DNA of 64,000 nucleotides, taken from Natronospirales bacterium (GTDB lineage Bacteria > Pseudomonadota > Gammaproteobacteria > Natronospirales > REEB76). The position numbers and the translations under genes are program-made. Positions within the stretch are counted from its first letter, which is position 1, and each line of letters starts with the position of its first letter. The DNA lies in the NCBI GenBank assembly GCA_021816765.1, contig JAKAXB010000003.1:1-64000 (forward strand), read 5' to 3'. Shown here in pieces: positions 1 through 24,636 of this stretch. The notes beneath the pieces are model-generated. The model saw only the letters and a list, made by a program, of their open reading frames with translations. It made no database searches and was not told where the DNA came from.

Positions 1-838
1 TGCCGATGGCGCCGATCTCCCAGTCGTTCTGACTGCTTCCGCCGCCTTCCCAGGCATGTTCGTAGGCCAGGCGCCAGTAGGGAGCGAGACCCGAGATGAC
101 ATTGGAAGAGGCGCTGGTGTAAGGCTGCGCGACCCCCAACTGGCTGGAACGGTACAGACTGACCTCGCCGTACATCGAATTGTTCATCCACACATAGGCG
201 CCCAAGCCCGCCACCTGCTGGGCCAGAGCACCCACCAGCATGGGGGTCGCACTGGGAGTGGGGGCGGACCCGGAACTCAAGAAAGGAAAGCCCCACGCAG
301 GCGTGCTGTTCCAGACATCCTGGACAGCCGGGTTATTATTAGCAGTCAGGCCCCAGACGATACTGTTGTCGCCCCATTTTGCATCACGGGCATACCGGAT
401 ATCGGTGTTATCCATGCTGAAGTGGTCCGAATCCGAGGCGTAGGTGATCTGCGCAAAGGCACCCATGTGTTCAGAGATGGCGCCGGCATAGAACAGGCTC
501 AATTGCTGCGGGAATGCCACGCTGCCATTCTGTGAGTCCGGCTGGGTTGTCTTGGTGAGCGTGTACGAAAGGACCGCCATGGCCGACAACGGCGGGACCT
601 TTTCTATGTTGAGTTTAGCGCTGCCACCATGCAGCTTGTTCGGCCCGAGCACGTAACCGTGCAGTTTGAAATACCGGCCAAAGGCGGTGAGTTGTGGCGC
701 TACCGTATGGCAGGCGGCGCAGGACATGCCCGTCTGCCTGGCAAAGCTCGGCACCGCCTGCGCCGGTGAGGACCACAGGGGCACGGTCGCAATAGTAACG
801 GGAACGATAACCAGTCGGACAAGATGCTTGAAGTACAT
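1..838 (-). CDS. Cyc2-like outer-membrane cytochrome-porin fusion (3' end cut by window edge)
   Basis: About 279 codons are open without a stop to the left edge. The protein starts MYFKHLVRL, has a signal peptide ending around PAQA, and then reads VPSFARQTGMSCAACH, one CXXCH haem site at about residues 39-43. FGRYFKLHGY follows, then alternating polar/aromatic stretches typical of outer-membrane beta strands (for example LSAMAVLSYTLTKTT, HMGAFAQITYASDSD). A single N-terminal haem motif in the FARQTG context followed by a barrel is the architecture of Cyc2-type cytochrome-porins, known as outer-membrane iron oxidases in neutrophilic and acidophilic iron oxidisers; related proteins of unknown substrate also exist. 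The ATG at 838 is preceded by GGGAGG at a good distance. It is divergent from the cytochrome gene at 1208. Membership of the general family is well supported; iron as substrate is not shown. Confidence 0.8.
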   Translation of the reverse strand, partial: MYFKHLVRLVIVPVTIATVPLWSSPAQAVPSFARQTGMSCAACHTVAPQLTAFGRYFKLHGYVLGPNKLHGGSAKLNIEKVPPLSAMAVLSYTLTKTTQPDSQNGSVAFPQQLSLFYAGAISEHMGAFAQITYASDSDHFSMDNTDIRYARDAKWGDNSIVWGLTANNNPAVQDVWNSTPAWGFPFLSSGSAPTPSATPMLVGALAQQVAGLGAYVWMNNSMYGEVSLYRSSQLGVAQPYTSASSNVISGLAPYWRLAYEHAWEGGGSSQNDWEIGAIG

Positions 839-1021: not shown

Positions 1022-1035
1022 TTGATCCAGGTCAT
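1022..1035. promoter_or_regulatory. FNR/Anr-like box (TTGAT-CCAG-GTCAT)
   Basis: This is the second FNR/Anr-type half-palindrome in the same divergent spacer, about 175 bases before the GTG start at 1208. It differs from the reverse complement of the 934 box at only two positions and shares TTGATC-N3-GTCA with the box at 5677. Together they suggest oxygen- or redox-responsive control of both divergent cytochrome transcripts. This is inference from sequence only. Confidence 0.4.
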
Positions 1036-1207: not shown

Positions 1208-1945
1208 GTGAGTGGCAAAGCATCTTTTGTGGATTGTTCCATCAGCGAGAAACTCCTATACACCGCTTTTCTGTGCGTGGTGGGCATCGGTTATCTGATG
1301 GCGCTGACGCTCATTTATCTCACCGACGCCGGCCTGAACGGCAAGCCGGGAATTAACGTGCAGGACATCGCCATTTCGTATTACGGCAACCGCAGCGGCA
1401 CCAAGATGGAGGCCATGCTGCGGGGGCCGATGCGCATCTACAGCAAACCGCTCGATACTGCGTTGCTGGTGGATTGGCTCGAGTCGGGAGCGACCAAGAG
1501 CGGCTATGACGCCATCGCGCACCCCATCCTGCAGAAGGACTGCTTCGCCTGTCACTCCGGCGAAACCGCCAAGCGCATGGGGATACCCGACTATTCCACG
1601 TACGAGGGTGTGCGCGCCGTCACCCAGAGAAACACCGGAGCCTCCCTCGAGTCGCTGGTGAAACTATCGCACATACACCTATTCGGAGTCGGACTGCTGC
1701 TGTTTGCGGTGGGCTTTATCTTCAGGTTGGCGGTGCTGAACCGCTGGCTCAAATGGGCACTGATCGTGACGCCGTTCGCTTCGATCCTGGCGGACATCCT
1801 CGCCTGGTTTCTGACCAAGTGGGATCCGCTATATGCCTATGTGGTGGTCATCGCAGGCGCGGTCATGGGGGCAGCGTTCACCGCCCAGATACTGATTTCC
1901 CTTTACCAGATCTGGTTGTTGCACGTACCGCGCGAAGCTCCATGA
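1208..1945 (+). CDS. membrane-anchored monohaem cytochrome c, four predicted TM segments
   Basis: The 245-residue protein has a TM helix at about 17-38, then a periplasmic loop with one c-type haem site CFACH (112-116). Three more hydrophobic segments follow at about 157-176, 181-201 and 209-236. A HIH pair (155-157) at the membrane edge could serve as extra metal or haem ligands; that is speculative. The start is GTG, chosen because GGAG sits 7 bases before it and the first helix begins soon after. It is followed after 70 bases by a His-rich periplasmic protein and is divergent from the cytochrome-porin, so a role in passing electrons between periplasm and inner membrane is plausible. I recognise no named family. 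Confidence 0.75.
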   Translation: MSGKASFVDCSISEKLLYTAFLCVVGIGYLMALTLIYLTDAGLNGKPGINVQDIAISYYGNRSGTKMEAMLRGPMRIYSKPLDTALLVDWLESGATKSGYDAIAHPILQKDCFACHSGETAKRMGIPDYSTYEGVRAVTQRNTGASLESLVKLSHIHLFGVGLLLFAVGFIFRLAVLNRWLKWALIVTPFASILADILAWFLTKWDPLYAYVVVIAGAVMGAAFTAQILISLYQIWLLHVPREAP

Positions 1946-2015: not shown

Positions 2016-2501
2016 ATGACAACGCGACACACCACCGGATGGGTCTCCGCGCTATTGGCGCTGAGTGTGTTGGGCCTCAGCCACGGAGTATTTGCTCAGG
2101 ACCAGGGGCACGCCCACGTGATTGACGGCGTGGCTGTGTACCTCGGTGTCATTCCCGCCGAACTCATCTCCGAGGAATACCCGAAACAGGCTCCCGAGCA
2201 CCAGATGCACGGCGGCGTGCCGAGCGGGGATCACTGGCACCATGTAAACGTGGCTATCTACAACGATACCACCGGCCAGCGTATCACCAATGCGCGTGTG
2301 GTCGCGCAGGTATGGTCGCAGGAAGAGGTCAACCTGCCGATCCAGAAAAAACCACTGGAGCCTATGAGCATTGCGGGGGCTGAGACCTACGGCAACTATT
2401 TCCACATGCCCGGTACCGCAATGTACTTCATCAAGGTGGAAATTGACCGTCCCGGTCACACGCCGATTGTCACCACCTTCGAGTACTACCATCGATCCTA
2501 G
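2016..2501 (+). CDS. His-rich periplasmic protein of unknown function, possibly metal-binding
   Basis: The 161-residue protein has a clear signal peptide (hydrophobic core 9-24, likely cleavage after GVFA). The mature N-terminus is rich in His and Met: GHAH (31-34), EHQMH (61-65) and HWHH (73-76). The rest is beta-rich with a conserved-looking end, which suggests a small immunoglobulin-like fold; this is a guess. An upstream in-frame ATG at 1968 is rejected because TTGGGGAGGA lies just before the ATG at 2016. It is probably co-transcribed with the membrane cytochrome at 1208. The His/Met clusters suggest copper or another metal. No named family was recognised. Confidence 0.7.
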   Translation: MTTRHTTGWVSALLALSVLGLSHGVFAQDQGHAHVIDGVAVYLGVIPAELISEEYPKQAPEHQMHGGVPSGDHWHHVNVAIYNDTTGQRITNARVVAQVWSQEEVNLPIQKKPLEPMSIAGAETYGNYFHMPGTAMYFIKVEIDRPGHTPIVTTFEYYHRS

Positions 2502-3291: not shown

Positions 3292-3810
3292 ATGAAATAT
3301 TTTCTGGCTGGAGTACTGACAACGCTCGTCGCGTTGCTTGCCGGTGGTTACCTCTTGCTGCAGAGCGGGAGGATACCGGCGAATGCGGATGGCAAGCCGA
3401 GCCGGCTTGAACTCTGGATGGCACGCACCTCTCTGCGCGCGACACTGCGGCACCAAGCGCCCAAGGGTCCTGATCCGGTGCCGCTGACGAATGCCAATCT
3501 GATCGCTGGGATACGCCTTTATGGGGAGCATTGCGCGATCTGCCATGGCACATCACAGGGTACCGCGTCGGCCTCTCCCGTAGCGAAAGGTGAATACCCA
3601 AGGCCGCCGCAACTTGCGAGCTACGGCGTCGAGGATGATCCGCCGGGGTATTCCTTCTGGAAAATCAAACATGGCATTCGGTTAACCGGAATGCCTTCGT
3701 TCAAGGGCACGCTGACGGATCAGCAGATATGGACGATTGCGCTCTTTCTAGAGCATATGAGTACATTGCCGCCGACAGCCGAACATGCATGGCAACAAGT
3801 CAGGAACTGA
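3292..3810 (+). CDS. membrane-anchored monohaem cytochrome c
   Basis: The 172-residue protein has an uncleaved-looking N-terminal helix (3-23) and then one class I cytochrome c domain. The haem site is CAICH (81-85), with a likely distal Met in the LTGMPSF stretch near 134, followed by the usual C-terminal helix (LTDQQIWTIALFLEHM). The start ATG follows GGGAAAG. It stands alone on the plus strand, convergent with the dihaem cytochrome at 3962-4639. It most likely carries electrons at the periplasmic face of the inner membrane; the partner is unknown. Confidence 0.85.
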   Translation: MKYFLAGVLTTLVALLAGGYLLLQSGRIPANADGKPSRLELWMARTSLRATLRHQAPKGPDPVPLTNANLIAGIRLYGEHCAICHGTSQGTASASPVAKGEYPRPPQLASYGVEDDPPGYSFWKIKHGIRLTGMPSFKGTLTDQQIWTIALFLEHMSTLPPTAEHAWQQVRN

Positions 3811-3961: not shown

Positions 3962-4639
3962 TCACTTGATGGCATGACGCTCAAACGTCTGACGAATATA
4001 CAAAATGACTCGGCGGATATCCTCGGGACTCAGTCGGCTGCCCCACGGGGCCATGGCGCTGCCCGGTTTGCCATACTCCACCACAAACATCAGCTGCTTG
4101 TCGCTGATGCCTGCCATGTCCATGCTGGTGAAATCCTTGGGATGGGGGAACAAGCCGCGGCCCAGCGGAGTTTGGCCGTTGCCCTTATCGCCGTGACAGA
4201 CGCTGCAGTATTTCCGGTAGACGTGTTCACCCACCAGAATATCGAGCTTGGCCTGGGTTATTCCCACAGGCAGCGGCTGTTGGAGACTGCGAATGTAATG
4301 TACCACATCGAACATATCCGTCGGGCTGAGGATTTCCCTCCAACTTGGCATGGCGGTCCCGGCGCGGCCCAGTTCGATGGCGGCAATGATCTGGCTGTCG
4401 TCCAACCGGGCCATGATGATCGGATCGGCGAAGTCGCGCGGGCGTGGCCTCAAAAGCCGGCCAATCGGCGTATCGGCACGGCCATCCGTGCCGTGACAAG
4501 CGGCACAATGCTTCTCGTAGATTGCCTTGCCCCGCAGGGTGCTTCGCTGGGAAACATTGCCGGCAGTGAGCGGCGTGATCCACACCAGACTGAGGATGAA
4601 CCAGGCGATCACAAAAGCTACAAGGCGGTAAGTTTTCAT
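3962..4639 (-). CDS. periplasmic dihaem cytochrome c (two tandem class I domains)
   Basis: The 225-residue protein has a signal peptide (to about ITPLTAG) and two homologous cytochrome domains. The haem sites are CAACH (45-49) and CSVCH (145-149), with likely distal Met ligands in GTAMPSW (97) and GSAMAPW (196). Each domain ends in a DVVHYIRSL- or RVILYIRQTF-type helix. I set the start at the ATG at 4639 because AAAGGA precedes it and the signal peptide begins there; the open frame extends 77 codons further without a signal. It is followed upstream, on the same strand, by the small cytochrome at 4901-5260, with similar FAD/FTS and YIRQTF features, so the two may be relatives and partners. Confidence 0.85.
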   Translation of the reverse strand: MKTYRLVAFVIAWFILSLVWITPLTAGNVSQRSTLRGKAIYEKHCAACHGTDGRADTPIGRLLRPRPRDFADPIIMARLDDSQIIAAIELGRAGTAMPSWREILSPTDMFDVVHYIRSLQQPLPVGITQAKLDILVGEHVYRKYCSVCHGDKGNGQTPLGRGLFPHPKDFTSMDMAGISDKQLMFVVEYGKPGSAMAPWGSRLSPEDIRRVILYIRQTFERHAIK

Positions 4640-4900: not shown

Positions 4901-5260
4901 TCATTTGCCTTGCGCGCTAAACGTCTGCCGCATATAGGCCAGGACCGCCAGAATATCCTCCCGGCTGAGCGAGGGATTGCCGCCCTTGGCAGGCATTGCC
5001 ATGGGCGATCCCGGGCTCTGATAGCCGTTCATGATCCTGCCCACGAGCAGTTTGTCGGGACTGCTGAGCACGCCGCCCTTGGCGGTGAAATCCGGTGCCC
5101 CGGGGATGGTGCCCTTGCCGTTGGCGCCGTGACAGGCAACACAGTTCTGGTTATAGATATGCTCGCCGTTCGGGACATTCCCGGCGACAACACCGCCGGA
5201 TGCCATCATCAGTAGCAGGAACCCGAACCCCAGGCCGGCTGGCAAAGCACGTAAGCGCAT
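4901..5260 (-). CDS. small periplasmic monohaem cytochrome c
   Basis: The 119-residue protein has a signal peptide (core 10-26), the haem site CVACH (40-44) and a likely distal Met in the PMAMP stretch (87-89). Its end, ILAVLAYMRQTF, matches the last helix of the dihaem cytochrome downstream. The ATG at 5260 is chosen over an upstream in-frame codon because AGAGGAG lies 8 bases before it. About 260 bases without a gene separate it from the dihaem cytochrome. It is likely an electron shuttle; donor and acceptor are not shown. Confidence 0.85.
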   Translation of the reverse strand: MRLRALPAGLGFGFLLLMMASGGVVAGNVPNGEHIYNQNCVACHGANGKGTIPGAPDFTAKGGVLSSPDKLLVGRIMNGYQSPGSPMAMPAKGGNPSLSREDILAVLAYMRQTFSAQGK

Positions 5261-5323: not shown

Positions 5324-5604
5324 CTAGAAAGACAACATGACGTTGAAATAAAGCGTGCTGTTATCCGTGGCATTGCGACCGTTGCCGTCGTAATTGCTGG
5401 CAGCACCCCATTGAACCTGCTGTACAGGGTGTATTGTGTGGCGAACTTCAAGTTCTGCCAGGGTAGGTAGTCAAATTCGACGATATAACCCCTGCTGTTG
5501 GAACTGCCCGTCCGGCTTCCCGAAACGGCAGCGACTGTACCCACGCAGTCGATATTGCCATTGTAGAGCAGGCAGTCCGTAGTGCCCACGGTCATGCCAC
5601 GCAT
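5324..5604 (-). pseudogene. C-terminal remnant of a second cytochrome-porin, frameshifted
   Basis: The leftward frame encodes a porin-like C-terminal stretch: SSNSRGYIVEFDYLPWQN, then LKFATQYTLYSRFNG. There one extra base shifts the frame. In the neighbouring frame the normal barrel end follows: ASNYDGNGRNATDN, then STLYFNVMLSF with a stop at 5324-5326 and the terminal aromatic residue of outer-membrane barrels. The N-terminal haem domain is absent. The ATG at 5604 sits behind GGGGAGAGG, so promoter and translation start may have been fused to the tail by internal deletion. The tail style matches that expected for the Cyc2-like family at 1-838, whose own C-terminus is outside the window. Confidence 0.65.
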
Positions 5605-5676
5605 GGTTCCTCTCCCCGTGAGAAACAAGACGCAACCTTGCAATGATTAATAGACACCGATAAGGCAACGCGTACC

Positions 5677-5690
5677 TTGATCTAAGTCAA
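5677..5690. promoter_or_regulatory. FNR/Anr-like box (TTGAT-CTAA-GTCAA)
   Basis: It matches 9 of 10 positions of TTGAT-N4-ATCAA, the best of the three boxes in this island. It lies about 73 bases before the ATG (5604) of the truncated cytochrome-porin remnant. It was probably the control site of the original gene. Confidence 0.5.
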
Positions 5691-6189: not shown

Positions 6190-7200
6190 TCAGGCAATCC
6201 TCAATCGAGCGGCGCGCCGGCGTCGAGACAGTGGGCGTAAGGACTCATCCTGCACCCATCGGTGAAATACAATAAGCCCGGCAATCACCTCGGTCATCGA
6301 GCCATCAATCCAGGTGATGAGCCCGCCGAGCGTCTGATCCAGGTGTGGACTGATTCCCCAAGCGAGGGATAGCCGTGCATAGACCGGGTAAAGTTCCCGA
6401 TGTGTCAGCGCGATATATGCGTCACCCAGGATGCAGGCAAACATCGTGAGTGTAACGGCCGCAAGCCGCGTGGGGTACGACACGGCATTCGGTGTCGCCC
6501 TCGGATCAAGCAGCATCCACCAGAAAAAAAGTCCGCTGATGAGCATGGTCACATGTGCAAATTCGTCGAGAGAGTCGTTCAATGCGATAAGGTCCATGAA
6601 ATGCGGAATTTGCCAAAAATAGAGGGCGAAGACGAACAGCAAGGATGCACCTAATGGATGCACAAGCACTCTCCACACTCGCCGCAACGCCTGATTGCGA
6701 ACCAGCGGCTTCAGAAGCCTCCGCCGCAAGGGGTCCGGTAATCCCGCAATGAGTGGCGCGAGCGGAACTCCGAGCGCCAATAGAAGCGGTGCAACCATGT
6801 GCAGCAGCATGTGCTGAACCTGATGCACAAAGTAGAAGTCTCTGGCCAGCGTATCGATGGGCGGGACGACAGCCGCAAAGGCAGTGAATATGCCAAGATA
6901 GACGAAAACCTGATTTGCAGCACTGACTCCGCCCCTTTCTCCTGCCAAGCGCCGCACGCCGCGCCCGTACCACAGGACGACAAGCACAGTCAAAATGACG
7001 AGCCACCACGCCCATCCGGAAAATACCTCCCCTTGAAGTATCTGCCCATGTTTGGACGCGACCACAAAATAAATTGCAATTCCCGCCCCGAGCCAGTCTC
7101 CGAGGAAAAACAGCATCACCAAAGTGATAATTTGCCGCCGTCCAAAGCCGATCAATTGCTGCTTTGGTACCGCCAGTTCGGCATTCTCACTGGGGATCAT
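6190..7200 (-). CDS. ctaG: CtaG-type cytochrome c oxidase assembly factor
   Basis: The 336-residue polytopic membrane protein has about nine hydrophobic segments. It carries the family's histidine-rich hallmarks: FVHQVQHMLLHMVAPLLLALG (His cluster near 130-140), DEFAHVTMLISGLFFWW and the RHLR-like basic end. This is the caa3-type (CtaG/CtaG_Cox) family, which assists copper insertion in haem-copper oxidases; it is unrelated to Cox11. The ATG at 7200 follows TTGGAG; a TTG four codons upstream is also open. No oxidase subunits lie in the window. It is downstream of ccmAB on the same strand, so it fits a cytochrome-maturation neighbourhood. Confidence 0.85.
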   Translation of the reverse strand: MIPSENAELAVPKQQLIGFGRRQIITLVMLFFLGDWLGAGIAIYFVVASKHGQILQGEVFSGWAWWLVILTVLVVLWYGRGVRRLAGERGGVSAANQVFVYLGIFTAFAAVVPPIDTLARDFYFVHQVQHMLLHMVAPLLLALGVPLAPLIAGLPDPLRRRLLKPLVRNQALRRVWRVLVHPLGASLLFVFALYFWQIPHFMDLIALNDSLDEFAHVTMLISGLFFWWMLLDPRATPNAVSYPTRLAAVTLTMFACILGDAYIALTHRELYPVYARLSLAWGISPHLDQTLGGLITWIDGSMTEVIAGLIVFHRWVQDESLRPLSRRRRAARLRIA

Positions 7201-7290
7201 CTGTATCTCCAAGATAATGTGACGAATGGAATCGGCGGATGCGTGTTCGTCGCGCGCATCCCGGCCTCCGGCCGGTACCGCAGCGGGGAC

Positions 7291-7956
7291 TCAGGATTCG
7301 AGGCTGACCCGCAGGCCGCCGGCAATGGCATAGGGTGCGAACGTCACTGCCAGCACCAGCATCGCGCCGAGAAAATAAAGCGGTGCCGCCGTGGGCTCAC
7401 TGCTCGCCGCCCGTGCTGCGGTGCTCGCGCCAAAGATCAGCACCGGTACCGTCAGCGGCAATATCAGAACGGGCAGCAACATGCCGCTGCGCCGCAATCC
7501 CACCGTGAGGGCCGCGCCCACCGCACCGAGAAAACTCAGTATCGGTGTGCCCAGGAGCAGGCTCATGATGAGTGTCCACATGGCCGCGGCCGGGTAGTTC
7601 AGCAACAGACCCATAAGGGGTGACAGGATCACCAGCGGCAGACCGGTTACCAGCCAGTGGGTAAACACCCGCAGCAGTACCACAAATTCCAGTGGAGCCG
7701 GGCTCAACAGCAATTGCTCCAGGCTGCCATCCTCGTAATCACTCTTGAAGAGGCTTTCCTGGCCGATCAAGCCCGCCAGCAGCGCCGCCACCCACACCAC
7801 GCCCGGTGCAAGGGTACGCAACAGGGCCGGCTCCGGGCTCAAGGCCAGCGGAAACAGCCCCGTTACCATCACGAAAAAGATCAGAGGCGTCGCCAGCTCA
7901 CTCCGGCGCCGGTAAGCCAGGAGCAGGTCCCGTTGGATCAAGGCAGCGGGCTTCAA
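7291..7956 (-). CDS. ccmB: haem exporter permease CcmB
   Basis: The 221-residue protein has six hydrophobic helices, the N-terminal RDLLLAYRRRSE motif and the SLFKSDYEDGSLEQLLLSP region typical of CcmB. With CcmA it forms the ABC module that releases holo-CcmE during system I cytochrome c maturation. The start is TTG, overlapping the ccmA stop in TTGA, with GGGGGAGG just upstream, so the genes are translationally coupled. ccmC to ccmH are not adjacent; CtaG follows instead. A decayed second copy of its 3' end lies at 5708-5868. Confidence 0.92.
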   Translation of the reverse strand: MKPAALIQRDLLLAYRRRSELATPLIFFVMVTGLFPLALSPEPALLRTLAPGVVWVAALLAGLIGQESLFKSDYEDGSLEQLLLSPAPLEFVVLLRVFTHWLVTGLPLVILSPLMGLLLNYPAAAMWTLIMSLLLGTPILSFLGAVGAALTVGLRRSGMLLPVLILPLTVPVLIFGASTAARAASSEPTAAPLYFLGAMLVLAVTFAPYAIAGGLRVSLES

Positions 7957-21481: not shown

Positions 21482-22195
21482 TCACAGGGAGGTGAGATAT
21501 TCCGCCAGGGCATGCATCTCCTTCCCAGTGAGGGATTTTGCAATGGGCTGCATGATCGCGGCGCGTTTGTCCCGGCGCAAGCCGTTCTTGAAGTAATGCA
21601 ACTGGATGAGGAGATAGAGGGGATCCTGCCCGGCAAGCCGGGGGTAAATGCCTTGACCTTGAGCCCGGCTGCCATGGCAACTTGAGCAGGCGGGTACGCC
21701 TTTTTGCGGCAGACCGTGCCTGAAAATTCCGCGGGCAAGGTTCAACGACCCCTCTGCCGGTATCGGGGAAGGTGGCGGTTCGGCGGCGTACCGTTGTGCC
21801 GCTTGCTCAATCTCGCTGTCGCTGAGGGAGCTGGCCACCCGCGGCATCATATCCCACATCATTTGCCTCATTCCGGAGATCTCTGGCGGGGGCGGGTCGG
21901 CACGGCTACCGTCACGAAATGCCCTGAGCTGCTCCGTTAAGTACGGTATCGTCTGGGCAGCCAGACGGGGGATAAAATCAAATTTCGGGTGATCACCATG
22001 TTCACCATGACACATGACGCAAGCCTGTAGCCCCCGCATGCCCATCATGGGCATCTGCCCCATATCCGACATCATTGACCCGCGGCTGCCGGATGACTCG
22101 CTGCCCATCCTCTCGGGTGCCTTCTGCCGTTTCGCGCAAGCCACCGCGCCAAACAACAGGAGTAAAGCAGCGAACGCGGTTAAGGCGAATCGCAT
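21482..22195 (-). CDS. dihaem cytochrome c with Met-rich linker (c4-like)
   Basis: The 237-residue exported protein has a signal peptide ending near GAVAC, which could be a weak lipobox. A Met-rich stretch (eight Met between residues 30 and 53) follows, then two cytochrome domains with CVMCH (59-63) and CSSCH (170-174). The repeats IPYLTEQLRAFRDGSR and LYLLIQLHYFKNGLRRD are hallmarks of c4/c553-type dihaem proteins, which carry electrons to terminal oxidases. The Met-rich segment could bind copper; this is inferred. It is divergent from the ArsR-rhodanese/DsrE/SQR-like operon, with 153 bases between, so it may be the electron acceptor chain of that sulfur locus. Confidence 0.88.
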   Translation of the reverse strand: MRFALTAFAALLLLFGAVACAKRQKAPERMGSESSGSRGSMMSDMGQMPMMGMRGLQACVMCHGEHGDHPKFDFIPRLAAQTIPYLTEQLRAFRDGSRADPPPPEISGMRQMMWDMMPRVASSLSDSEIEQAAQRYAAEPPPSPIPAEGSLNLARGIFRHGLPQKGVPACSSCHGSRAQGQGIYPRLAGQDPLYLLIQLHYFKNGLRRDKRAAIMQPIAKSLTGKEMHALAEYLTSL

Positions 22196-22311
22196 GGTCA
22201 GCCCATCCGAAGACAAATGGCCCGGTCCCGCAGTGTGGTGATGGTATTGGGGGCCCGGCTGATTTTCGAATACGCGTGAGTCCATACAGCTCTTGCGGCC
22301 GGGAGCCCGCC

Positions 22312-22341
22312 CTTGACTAATCAAGTGTTATATTGAATAGT
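22312..22341 (+). promoter_or_regulatory. promoter with overlapping palindrome for the sulfur operon
   Basis: TTGACT (22313-22318), a 17-base spacer and AATAGT (22336-22341) would start transcription at about 22348, essentially at the ATG at 22349. No Shine-Dalgarno sequence is present, so the message is probably leaderless. The perfect arms CTTGA-CTAA-TCAAG (22312-22325) overlap the -35, and an AT-rich TATTGAATA lies in the spacer. Either is a candidate operator for the ArsR-type regulator encoded directly downstream. Confidence 0.5.
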
Positions 22342-23478: not shown

Positions 23479-24636
23479 ATGAGTGAGACGAAAACAGTCG
23501 TTATTTTGGGTGGCGGTGTGGGCGGTGTCGTCGCCGCCGCCGAGTTGCGCAAGCGCCTGCCCAGTCCTCACCGGGTTATCCTCGTGGATCGGGAGCACGA
23601 GCACCTCTTCGCGCCGTCGCTCCTCTGGCTTATGGTTGGGCTGCGCAAGGCGAAGTCCATCCAGCGCCCGCTCGCCCGGCTTGCACGCAAAGGCATCGAA
23701 GTGCGCTTCGGCGAGGTGGAGAAGATTGATCCTGCCAGCCGGCGCGTGGTCGTGTCCGGCGAGATCCTTGACGCCGACTACCTGGTGGTCTCCCTCGGGG
23801 CTGAACTCGCGCCGGAAACCGTGCCCGGCCTTCGGGAGGGCGGGCATAACTTCTACACCTTGCCAGGCGCTGAAAGCCTCCATGTCGCTCTCCGGAAATT
23901 GCAAAAGGGGCGCATCGTCCTACTCACCGCGGCACCGATCTACAAGTGTCCGGCGGCGCCCTACGAGGCGGCCCTGCTCATTGACGCGTTCTACCGCAAG
24001 CGCGGCCTTCGTCACGCGGTCAGCATCGAGGTCTTTGCCGCAGAACCGGCGCCGATGGGCGTGGCGGGTCCTGAAGTATCCTCAGCAGTGAAACAGTTGC
24101 TCACCGCCAAGGGCGTCCTCTACCACCCGGAACACCAAGTAATTTCGGCTGATGCCGCAGCGAAGCGGCTCAGCTTTGCGAACGGCGCACAAGCGGACTT
24201 CGACCTCCTGGCCTACGTTCCGCCCCACCGCGCGCCGCGCGTCATTCGCGAGAGTGCGCTGGCCGGCAAAACCGGCTGGATCTCCGTGGATAGACATACC
24301 TTGGAAACCTGCTTCCCTCAGGTCTATGCGATCGGCGATGTCGTTTCGATCCCCTTGAGGCTCGGCAAGCCTCTTCCCAAAGCCGGCGTGTTTGCGCATG
24401 GTCAGGCCGAAGTCGTGGCGGAAACCATCACCCTTGCCGTCACCGGCCGGGGTGTATCCAAGAGGTTCAACGGCCACGGTGAGTGCTTTATCGAAATCGG
24501 CGGAGGACGGGCGGGGCTCGGCAGTGGGGATTTCTACGCGGAGCCCATGCCTGTTGTGAAGCTTCACGCACCCGCACATCGCTGGCACCTGGGGAAGGTG
24601 CTCTTTGAGAAGTCGTGGCTCTATCTCAGGCTATAG
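23479..24636 (+). CDS. sulfide:quinone-oxidoreductase-like flavoprotein
   Basis: The 385-residue protein has the FAD-binding VVILGGGVGGVVAA motif, the second FAD site FPQVYAIGDV, the KCPAAPYEAA segment (Cys157) corresponding to a redox Cys of sulfide:quinone reductases, and another Cys (336) in GECFIEIGGG. KAGVFAHGQAE, near the quinone site of the family, is present. A hydrophobic or amphipathic C-terminus (VLFEKSWLYLRL) fits peripheral membrane binding. It probably oxidises sulfide or a persulfide with quinone as acceptor, but the exact SQR type was not assigned and flavocytochrome-like relatives exist. Confidence 0.85.
   Translation: MSETKTVVILGGGVGGVVAAAELRKRLPSPHRVILVDREHEHLFAPSLLWLMVGLRKAKSIQRPLARLARKGIEVRFGEVEKIDPASRRVVVSGEILDADYLVVSLGAELAPETVPGLREGGHNFYTLPGAESLHVALRKLQKGRIVLLTAAPIYKCPAAPYEAALLIDAFYRKRGLRHAVSIEVFAAEPAPMGVAGPEVSSAVKQLLTAKGVLYHPEHQVISADAAAKRLSFANGAQADFDLLAYVPPHRAPRVIRESALAGKTGWISVDRHTLETCFPQVYAIGDVVSIPLRLGKPLPKAGVFAHGQAEVVAETITLAVTGRGVSKRFNGHGECFIEIGGGRAGLGSGDFYAEPMPVVKLHAPAHRWHLGKVLFEKSWLYLRL

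Follow-up and report, generated by a model that had tools for sequence, protein, structure and literature searches.

The gene cyc2 serves as a marker for microbial iron oxidation, and the rus-type operons of Acidithiobacillus have similar counterparts described for Acidihalobacter and Acidiferrobacter. Cyc2 proteins are defined by (i) an AXPXFAR[Q/K][T/Y] motif, (ii) a CXXCH motif, (iii) a PXL motif, (iv) a length of at least 365 aa, and (v) a porin domain, with OprO and OprP as the structures named for Cyc2PV-1 and the cytochrome pictured as a periplasmic plug, such that an ion would have to enter the pore (Keffer et al. 2021, PMC8406198). During anaerobic growth of At. ferrooxidans on Fe3+, the rus products rise together with the paralogues Cyc1B and Cyc2B, and Cyc2 has been proposed as a terminal ferric reductase in this organism (PMC7735108, PMC8790237). 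In addition, Acidobacterium and Acidiphilium are among the acidophilic heterotrophs described to reduce Fe(III) when oxygen is limiting (PMC8790237), and Cyc2 homologues are known from Acidocella and related Acetobacteraceae (PMC10715153).

The stretch of DNA analysed here, so-called the window, comprises the opening 64 kb, counted from the first base, of a contig of 220,780 bases in a Natronospirales draft genome of 2.58 Mb with an estimated completeness of 99%. Its relevant features, together with the complete orthologue from a congener, the MAG Natronospirales bacterium DX4.bin23 (G001), are:

1-838, minus strand: Cyc2-family cytochrome-porin, first 279 codons, truncated by the contig end
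935-947, minus strand: FNR-type site TTGATCTGGGTCA, matching the full box at 8/10, some 109 bp upstream of where the cytochrome-porin starts
1022-1034, plus strand: FNR-type site TTGATCCAGGTCA, 8/10, oriented towards the divergent four-TM gene
1208-1945, plus strand: four-TM monohaem (CFACH) inner-membrane-type cytochrome, with HIHLFG opening TM2
2016-2501, plus strand: His-rich exported protein
3292-3810, plus strand: monohaem cytochrome c, membrane-anchored or exported
3962-4639, minus strand: dihaem cytochrome c with two Cytochrome_CBB3-type domains
4901-5260, minus strand: monohaem cytochrome c
5326-5605, minus strand: what remains of a second cyc2-like gene, which the congener keeps intact (L026:13508-14854)
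5677-5690, unstranded: FNR-type box TTGATCTAAGTCAA, 9/10, retained upstream of the remnant
6190-7212, minus strand: Caa3_CtaG, island neighbour
7291-7956, minus strand: CcmB, of a cytochrome c maturation operon split by the island
L026:7899-9257, minus strand (the same as L039:8001-9359, plus strand): complete congener orthologue, 452 aa

The cytochrome-porin opens with an ATG at 836-838 on the minus strand, and its frame stays open up to the contig edge. The minus-strand reading contains QAVPSFARQTGMSCAACHTVAPQLTAFGRYFKLHGY and a sole CXXCH in the context AVPSFARQTGMSCAACHTVAPQL, in agreement with the single N-terminal CXXCH after FARQTG described in the earlier note, and the N-terminus reads as hydrophobic, ending in AQA. 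A 90% identical paralogue occupies a contig of 4,407 bases and ends at the identical codon; the assembly breaks there, which is why the gene is cut at the contig start; the terminal 127 bases of both contigs are identical, and the 3′ third of both genes is missing from the assembly. Such identical ends indicate that the assembler halted at a repeat, and the gene is thus truncated by an assembly edge rather than by a lesion. The place at the head of a cytochrome island, which the earlier note had given to the gene, is therefore an artefact of a window that starts at contig base 1 with a gene cut by this paralogue-induced break; in the congener, ccmC and ccmB flank the island. That the gene has decayed or been mis-assembled and is functionless in the source organism might be suspected from the cut at the contig end and from the remnant state of the second cyc2-like gene of the island. 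We consider this very improbable: the two copies share a repeat of 127 bases or more at the break, on which ground a pseudogene was rejected; both keep an open frame, and homologues that are 96% and 86% identical have it in full.

The complete gene could be followed through the congener orthologue, which is intact, 96% identical to the window protein over the shared part and located at the same place in an island whose DNA is 94-95% identical, with gene order kept. Whole or partial, the cytochrome-porin is present in 10 of the 11 genomes of the genus, its own included. Since at least 570 of the 593 candidate stretches listed from public genomes encode a relative, and since the order is conserved at this DNA identity in the congener, the observation of a cytochrome-porin is confirmed as lying far beyond chance. 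In the congener, a second copy that shares 86% identity with the window protein adjoins hemN and a Crp/Fnr gene, and the island itself contains a third cyc2-like gene, 43% identical. Along the first two copies (L026:7899-9257 and L027:8358-9707), stretches of ~73-90% identity alternate with stretches of nearly 100%, the pattern expected from gene conversion. Five cyc2-like profile matches occur in a single genome of another family (G343; L187, L188, L189), and tandem cyc2-like pairs are found in Gemmatimonadetes and Bacteroidetes MAGs (L114:282-3467, L072:5372-8763). A plasmid recorded as Acidithiobacillus ferrooxidans YQ-N3 (L176, CP084173.1) displays the cyc2-like region of Acidiphilium cryptum pACRY03 (L178, NC_009469.1) with identical gene order and spacing, suggesting plasmid transfer or a mixed culture. 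Among the nearest relatives, many bear MAG names of a series that we take to originate from acid-mine drainage sediment. A cultured bacterium, Acidipila rosea DSM 103428 (L044), encodes a homologue as well.

By its motifs and predicted fold, the window protein is an ordinary member of the Cyc2 family. Both the window protein and the orthologue carry AVPSFARQT, matching the defining motif, and the single CXXCH is followed by PXL in CAACHTVAPQL; the 452-aa orthologue exceeds the minimal length, the window copy itself being truncated. The AlphaFold2 model, built from an alignment of 53 natural homologues, begins with a short helical haem segment at the N-terminus, which exactly 16 strands follow (pLDDT 86.6, pTM 0.83), the haem being absent from the model and the segment beside its site being of low confidence. 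Foldseek relates the model to general porins including OmpF (E about 1e-9), and VIA-align gives Z values of 21-22 to porins including OmpF, OprO, and OprP, with 21.3 for OprO (4rjw) and OprP (2o4v); the predicted model and these matches together point to a 16-strand porin domain. Neither Pfam nor NCBIfam assigns the cytochrome-porin, the four-TM protein, or the His-rich protein of the window to a family, and sequence searches of the PDB return relatives for neither the porin nor the His-rich protein.

The phylogenetic tree comprises 105 rows, computed by a quick method without bootstrap and with SH-aLRT supports, and takes as reference the four cyc2 genes directly beside a rusticyanin-like cup gene, accompanied in one genome (G279) by cox genes. 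A clade with an SH-aLRT support of 97 unites the window genus, the four rus-operon Cyc2 proteins, and homologues from Acidobacteriota, Bacteroidota, and Gemmatimonadota, within which the rus-operon proteins form their own subclade (SH-aLRT 89) that excludes the window clade. This shared clade suggests that the window protein may belong to published cluster 2. Two sequences of another Cyc2 type (L019, L174) are placed far from the window clade, and a plasmid search with one of them (L174) yielded no match. The earlier note had recognised the architecture of Cyc2 outer-membrane iron oxidases, leaving the substrate open, to be checked by barrel prediction and phylogenetic placement. Its family call is right, because motif and length, the predicted 16-strand barrel, and the clade with rus-operon Cyc2 all agree; neither the missing barrel nor the grouping with an unrelated periplasmic cytochrome family that would have spoken against it was found.

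The neighbourhood contains, as previously described, a divergent four-TM cytochrome with one CXXCH and four hydrophobic segments, followed by three further cytochromes within 6 kb. The remnant at 5326-5605, absent from the earlier list of island cytochromes, has lost about 1.06 kb by an internal deletion between window positions 5588 and 5593, its remaining end being out of frame; the corresponding gene is shortened in another genome as well (G008). From ccmC to ccmB, the congener island comprises the cytochrome-porin (minus strand), the four-TM and His-rich genes and a monohaem cytochrome (plus strand), the dihaem and monohaem cytochromes and the second cyc2-like gene (minus strand), CtaG, CcmB, and CcmA. 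In the source genome, a Crp/Fnr gene and hemN adjoin the paralogous copy. A genome of another family (G165) displays one contiguous row of Crp/Fnr, hemN, a small cytochrome, a cyc2-like gene, and ccmABC, uniting the two contexts, ccm and hemN/FNR, that stand apart in the window genus. More broadly, a same-strand mono- or dihaem cytochrome adjoins 24 of 73 homologues, versus 2.3% of other ORFs; a Caballeronia plasmid carries HiPIP, cytochrome-porin, and cytochrome c in this order, and Ideonella and Methylocystis plasmids carry the cytochrome-porin and then cytochrome c. Outside the island, the window encodes an ORF with two CXXCH motifs (21482-22324, minus strand) and an FAD-dependent oxidoreductase (23479-24636) with an N-terminus like that of sulfide:quinone oxidoreductase or NDH-2, which could provide an alternative electron source.

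Of the 369 genomes sampled from the class, 58 encode the four-TM protein, and the HIHLFG at the start of its TM2 might form a b-haem or metal site. Among the loci checked, its gene adjoins a cyc2-like gene only in the window genus and in one further lineage (that of G039), and it was rejected as a constant cyc2-like partner. Its relatives often reside in heavy-metal resistance islands, surrounded by YHS proteins, P-type ATPases, and RND pumps, and in one genome (G217) a Cyc2 of the other type lies near, these gene types being read by eye. The four-TM gene also occurs in the gammaproteobacterial clusters L220, L221, L224, L225, L226, and L229, where genes like 2-oxoacid:acceptor oxidoreductases are found too. 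Some His-rich homologues show sub-threshold similarity to PF10634 (Fe2+ transport protein), which stays a weak lead because the AlphaFold2 model of the His-rich protein, made from two sequences, was worthless (pLDDT 38.1) and was set aside. The four-TM and His-rich pair may represent an independent metal-handling addition, or might form the inner-membrane end of the electron route. Extended to the cytochrome-porin itself, the metal association would make the conduit a metal-stress electron valve, operating with both proteins on copper or another metal at the envelope and not in iron respiration. This would fit the cyc2-like genes that follow an RND efflux operon in two genomes (G039 and G186), the four-TM gene directly followed by a His-rich homologue near an RND pump in another (G148), and the heavy-metal P-type ATPase within 6 kb of plasmid-borne His-rich homologues in 4/4 annotated neighbourhoods read. 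The valve is nevertheless improbable, considering that close relatives within the genus adjoin hemN/FNR without the four-TM and His-rich genes, that most homologues have neither gene, and that FNR-type sites, the motif searched for, are conserved.

These sites concern the best matches to TTGAT-N4-ATCAA, which lie 52-109 bp upstream of the start in every window-clade gene. Scoring boxes of at least 9/10 within 380 bp upstream of the mature start, 7 of 9 genes of the window group (eight clade genes plus the second cyc2-like gene of G001) carry one, versus about 6% of random stretches taken from these loci, a comparison to be read knowing that the FNR consensus was picked after viewing the sequence, that the clade members scored are related, and that the two sites of the window at the cytochrome-porin reach only 8/10. 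Such boxes precede 16 of 59 other proteobacterial homologues, 1 of 52 in Acidobacteriota, Bacteroidota, and Gemmatimonadota (1.7% at random), and none of the four rus-operon cyc2 genes (0/4); a second Cyc2 of the G279 family, not beside cup, shows box matches in 2 of 3 cases, but far upstream. Relatives have boxes of 9/10 and 10/10 where the window has its site at 935-947. The window contains the pattern TTGATNNNNGTCA three times, versus 0.52 expected, all three in island promoter regions: those of the cytochrome-porin, the four-TM gene, and the remnant. The regulator beside the paralogue displays the N-terminal cysteine row CSSCSLAELC, as read in its sequence; a row of this kind is a feature of oxygen-sensing FNR proteins.

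Family, fold, neighbours, and conserved regulatory sites are thus computational results, and the physiological setting comes from searches for single families in the source genome. These detect a bc1-type cytochrome b, a cytochrome bd oxidase, and one haem-copper oxidase; no RuBisCO is found, the sole carbon-fixation route covered, and no rusticyanin match exceeds the family cut-off, in contrast to the rus-operon bearer G279, in which RuBisCO is present. Neither the window nor the C39 and G001 neighbourhoods contain cup/rusticyanin and cox genes beside the cytochrome-porin. It is here that an iron-oxidase function, the one tied to this architecture in the earlier note, loses ground, with RuBisCO and rusticyanin missing from these searches and FNR-type boxes upstream. 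The cytochrome-porin would act as a Cyc2-family outer-membrane conduit with a 16-strand porin and one N-terminal c-type haem, made under oxygen scarcity through an FNR-type regulator acting at the predicted sites. A dissolved metal ion, most likely iron, would enter the barrel, and the barrel haem would exchange electrons with small periplasmic c-type cytochromes, for instance the mono- and dihaem ones of the island, so that the outer-to-inner-membrane electron route envisaged earlier is plausible. In this RuBisCO-less organism the flow may lead outward, from quinol through bc1 and the periplasmic cytochromes to the haem and on to Fe(III). From sequence and model, a low-oxygen conduit of this kind, under FNR-type control, with iron as the most likely partner and a leaning to Fe(III) export, is the reading we hold with moderate confidence. 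Export under low oxygen appears at least as likely as iron oxidation because RuBisCO and rusticyanin are missing and the FNR-type boxes are unlike rus-operon cyc2, and the lean is strengthened by the induction on Fe3+ in At. ferrooxidans, by the Fe(III)-reducing acidophilic heterotrophs, and by the Cyc2 homologues of Acetobacteraceae.

Both directions are possible, and Fe(II) oxidation is a close rival to the favoured Fe(III) export. To our knowledge, the Cyc2 proteins tested so far are Fe(II) oxidisers, which counts against export. A classical Fe(II) oxidase would take electrons from dissolved Fe(II) at the barrel haem and hand them, via periplasmic cytochromes, to the bd or the haem-copper oxidase, as an extra energy source for a low-oxygen heterotroph. 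The clade common to the window protein and rus-operon Cyc2, both oxidases in the genome, and the CtaG gene adjoining the island, a protein for copper delivery to haem-copper oxidase, are consistent with this scheme, and low-oxygen control is also compatible with microaerophilic iron oxidation; still, a genome lacking RuBisCO, rusticyanin over the cut-off, and a rus-type operon, and the lack of FNR-type boxes at the rus-operon genes examined, render it the less likely of the two.

Returning to the favoured export, we tentatively extend it, with less than even confidence, to a whole Cyc2 branch with FNR-type promoters and ccm/hemN or small-cytochrome neighbours, which might function mainly as a low-oxygen ferric reductase in heterotrophs. 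If so, the presence of cyc2 alone would not signify iron oxidation, and an overlooked route of ferric reduction in heterotrophs would become testable starting at the promoters; it is the regulatory twist of the FNR-type boxes that renders the electron direction testable. Homologues of the window-protein kind are common in Acidobacteriota, Bacteroidota, and Proteobacteria MAGs, and metagenomic counts of iron oxidisers would be inflated if one branch is induced without oxygen and runs outward.

Compared with known systems, the window protein resembles MtrAB, MtoAB, and PioAB in predicted outer-membrane electron transfer through a barrel, yet these comprise a multihaem cytochrome of about ten haems in a 26-strand barrel, whereas the window type displays 16 predicted strands and one haem site and does not belong to them. 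With Cyc2PV-1 of Mariprofundus ferrooxydans (Cluster 1) it shares the Cyc2 motif, the fused cytochrome-porin, and an OprO/OprP-like 16-strand barrel, whereas its grouping with rus-operon Cyc2 suggests another cluster. Rus-operon Cyc2 proteins display the same single N-terminal CXXCH, PSFARQ context, porin domain, and similar length within a well-supported clade; in contrast to these, the window gene has no adjoining rusticyanin, cyc1, or cox genes, so that it stands outside the rus-operon iron-oxidation system, and its genus displays the ccm or hemN/FNR context and FNR-type boxes in an organism without RuBisCO. By published description, it can be likened to Cyc2B of Acidithiobacillus ferrooxidans (PMC7735108), with which it would share a low-oxygen iron metabolism and a small cytochrome partner.
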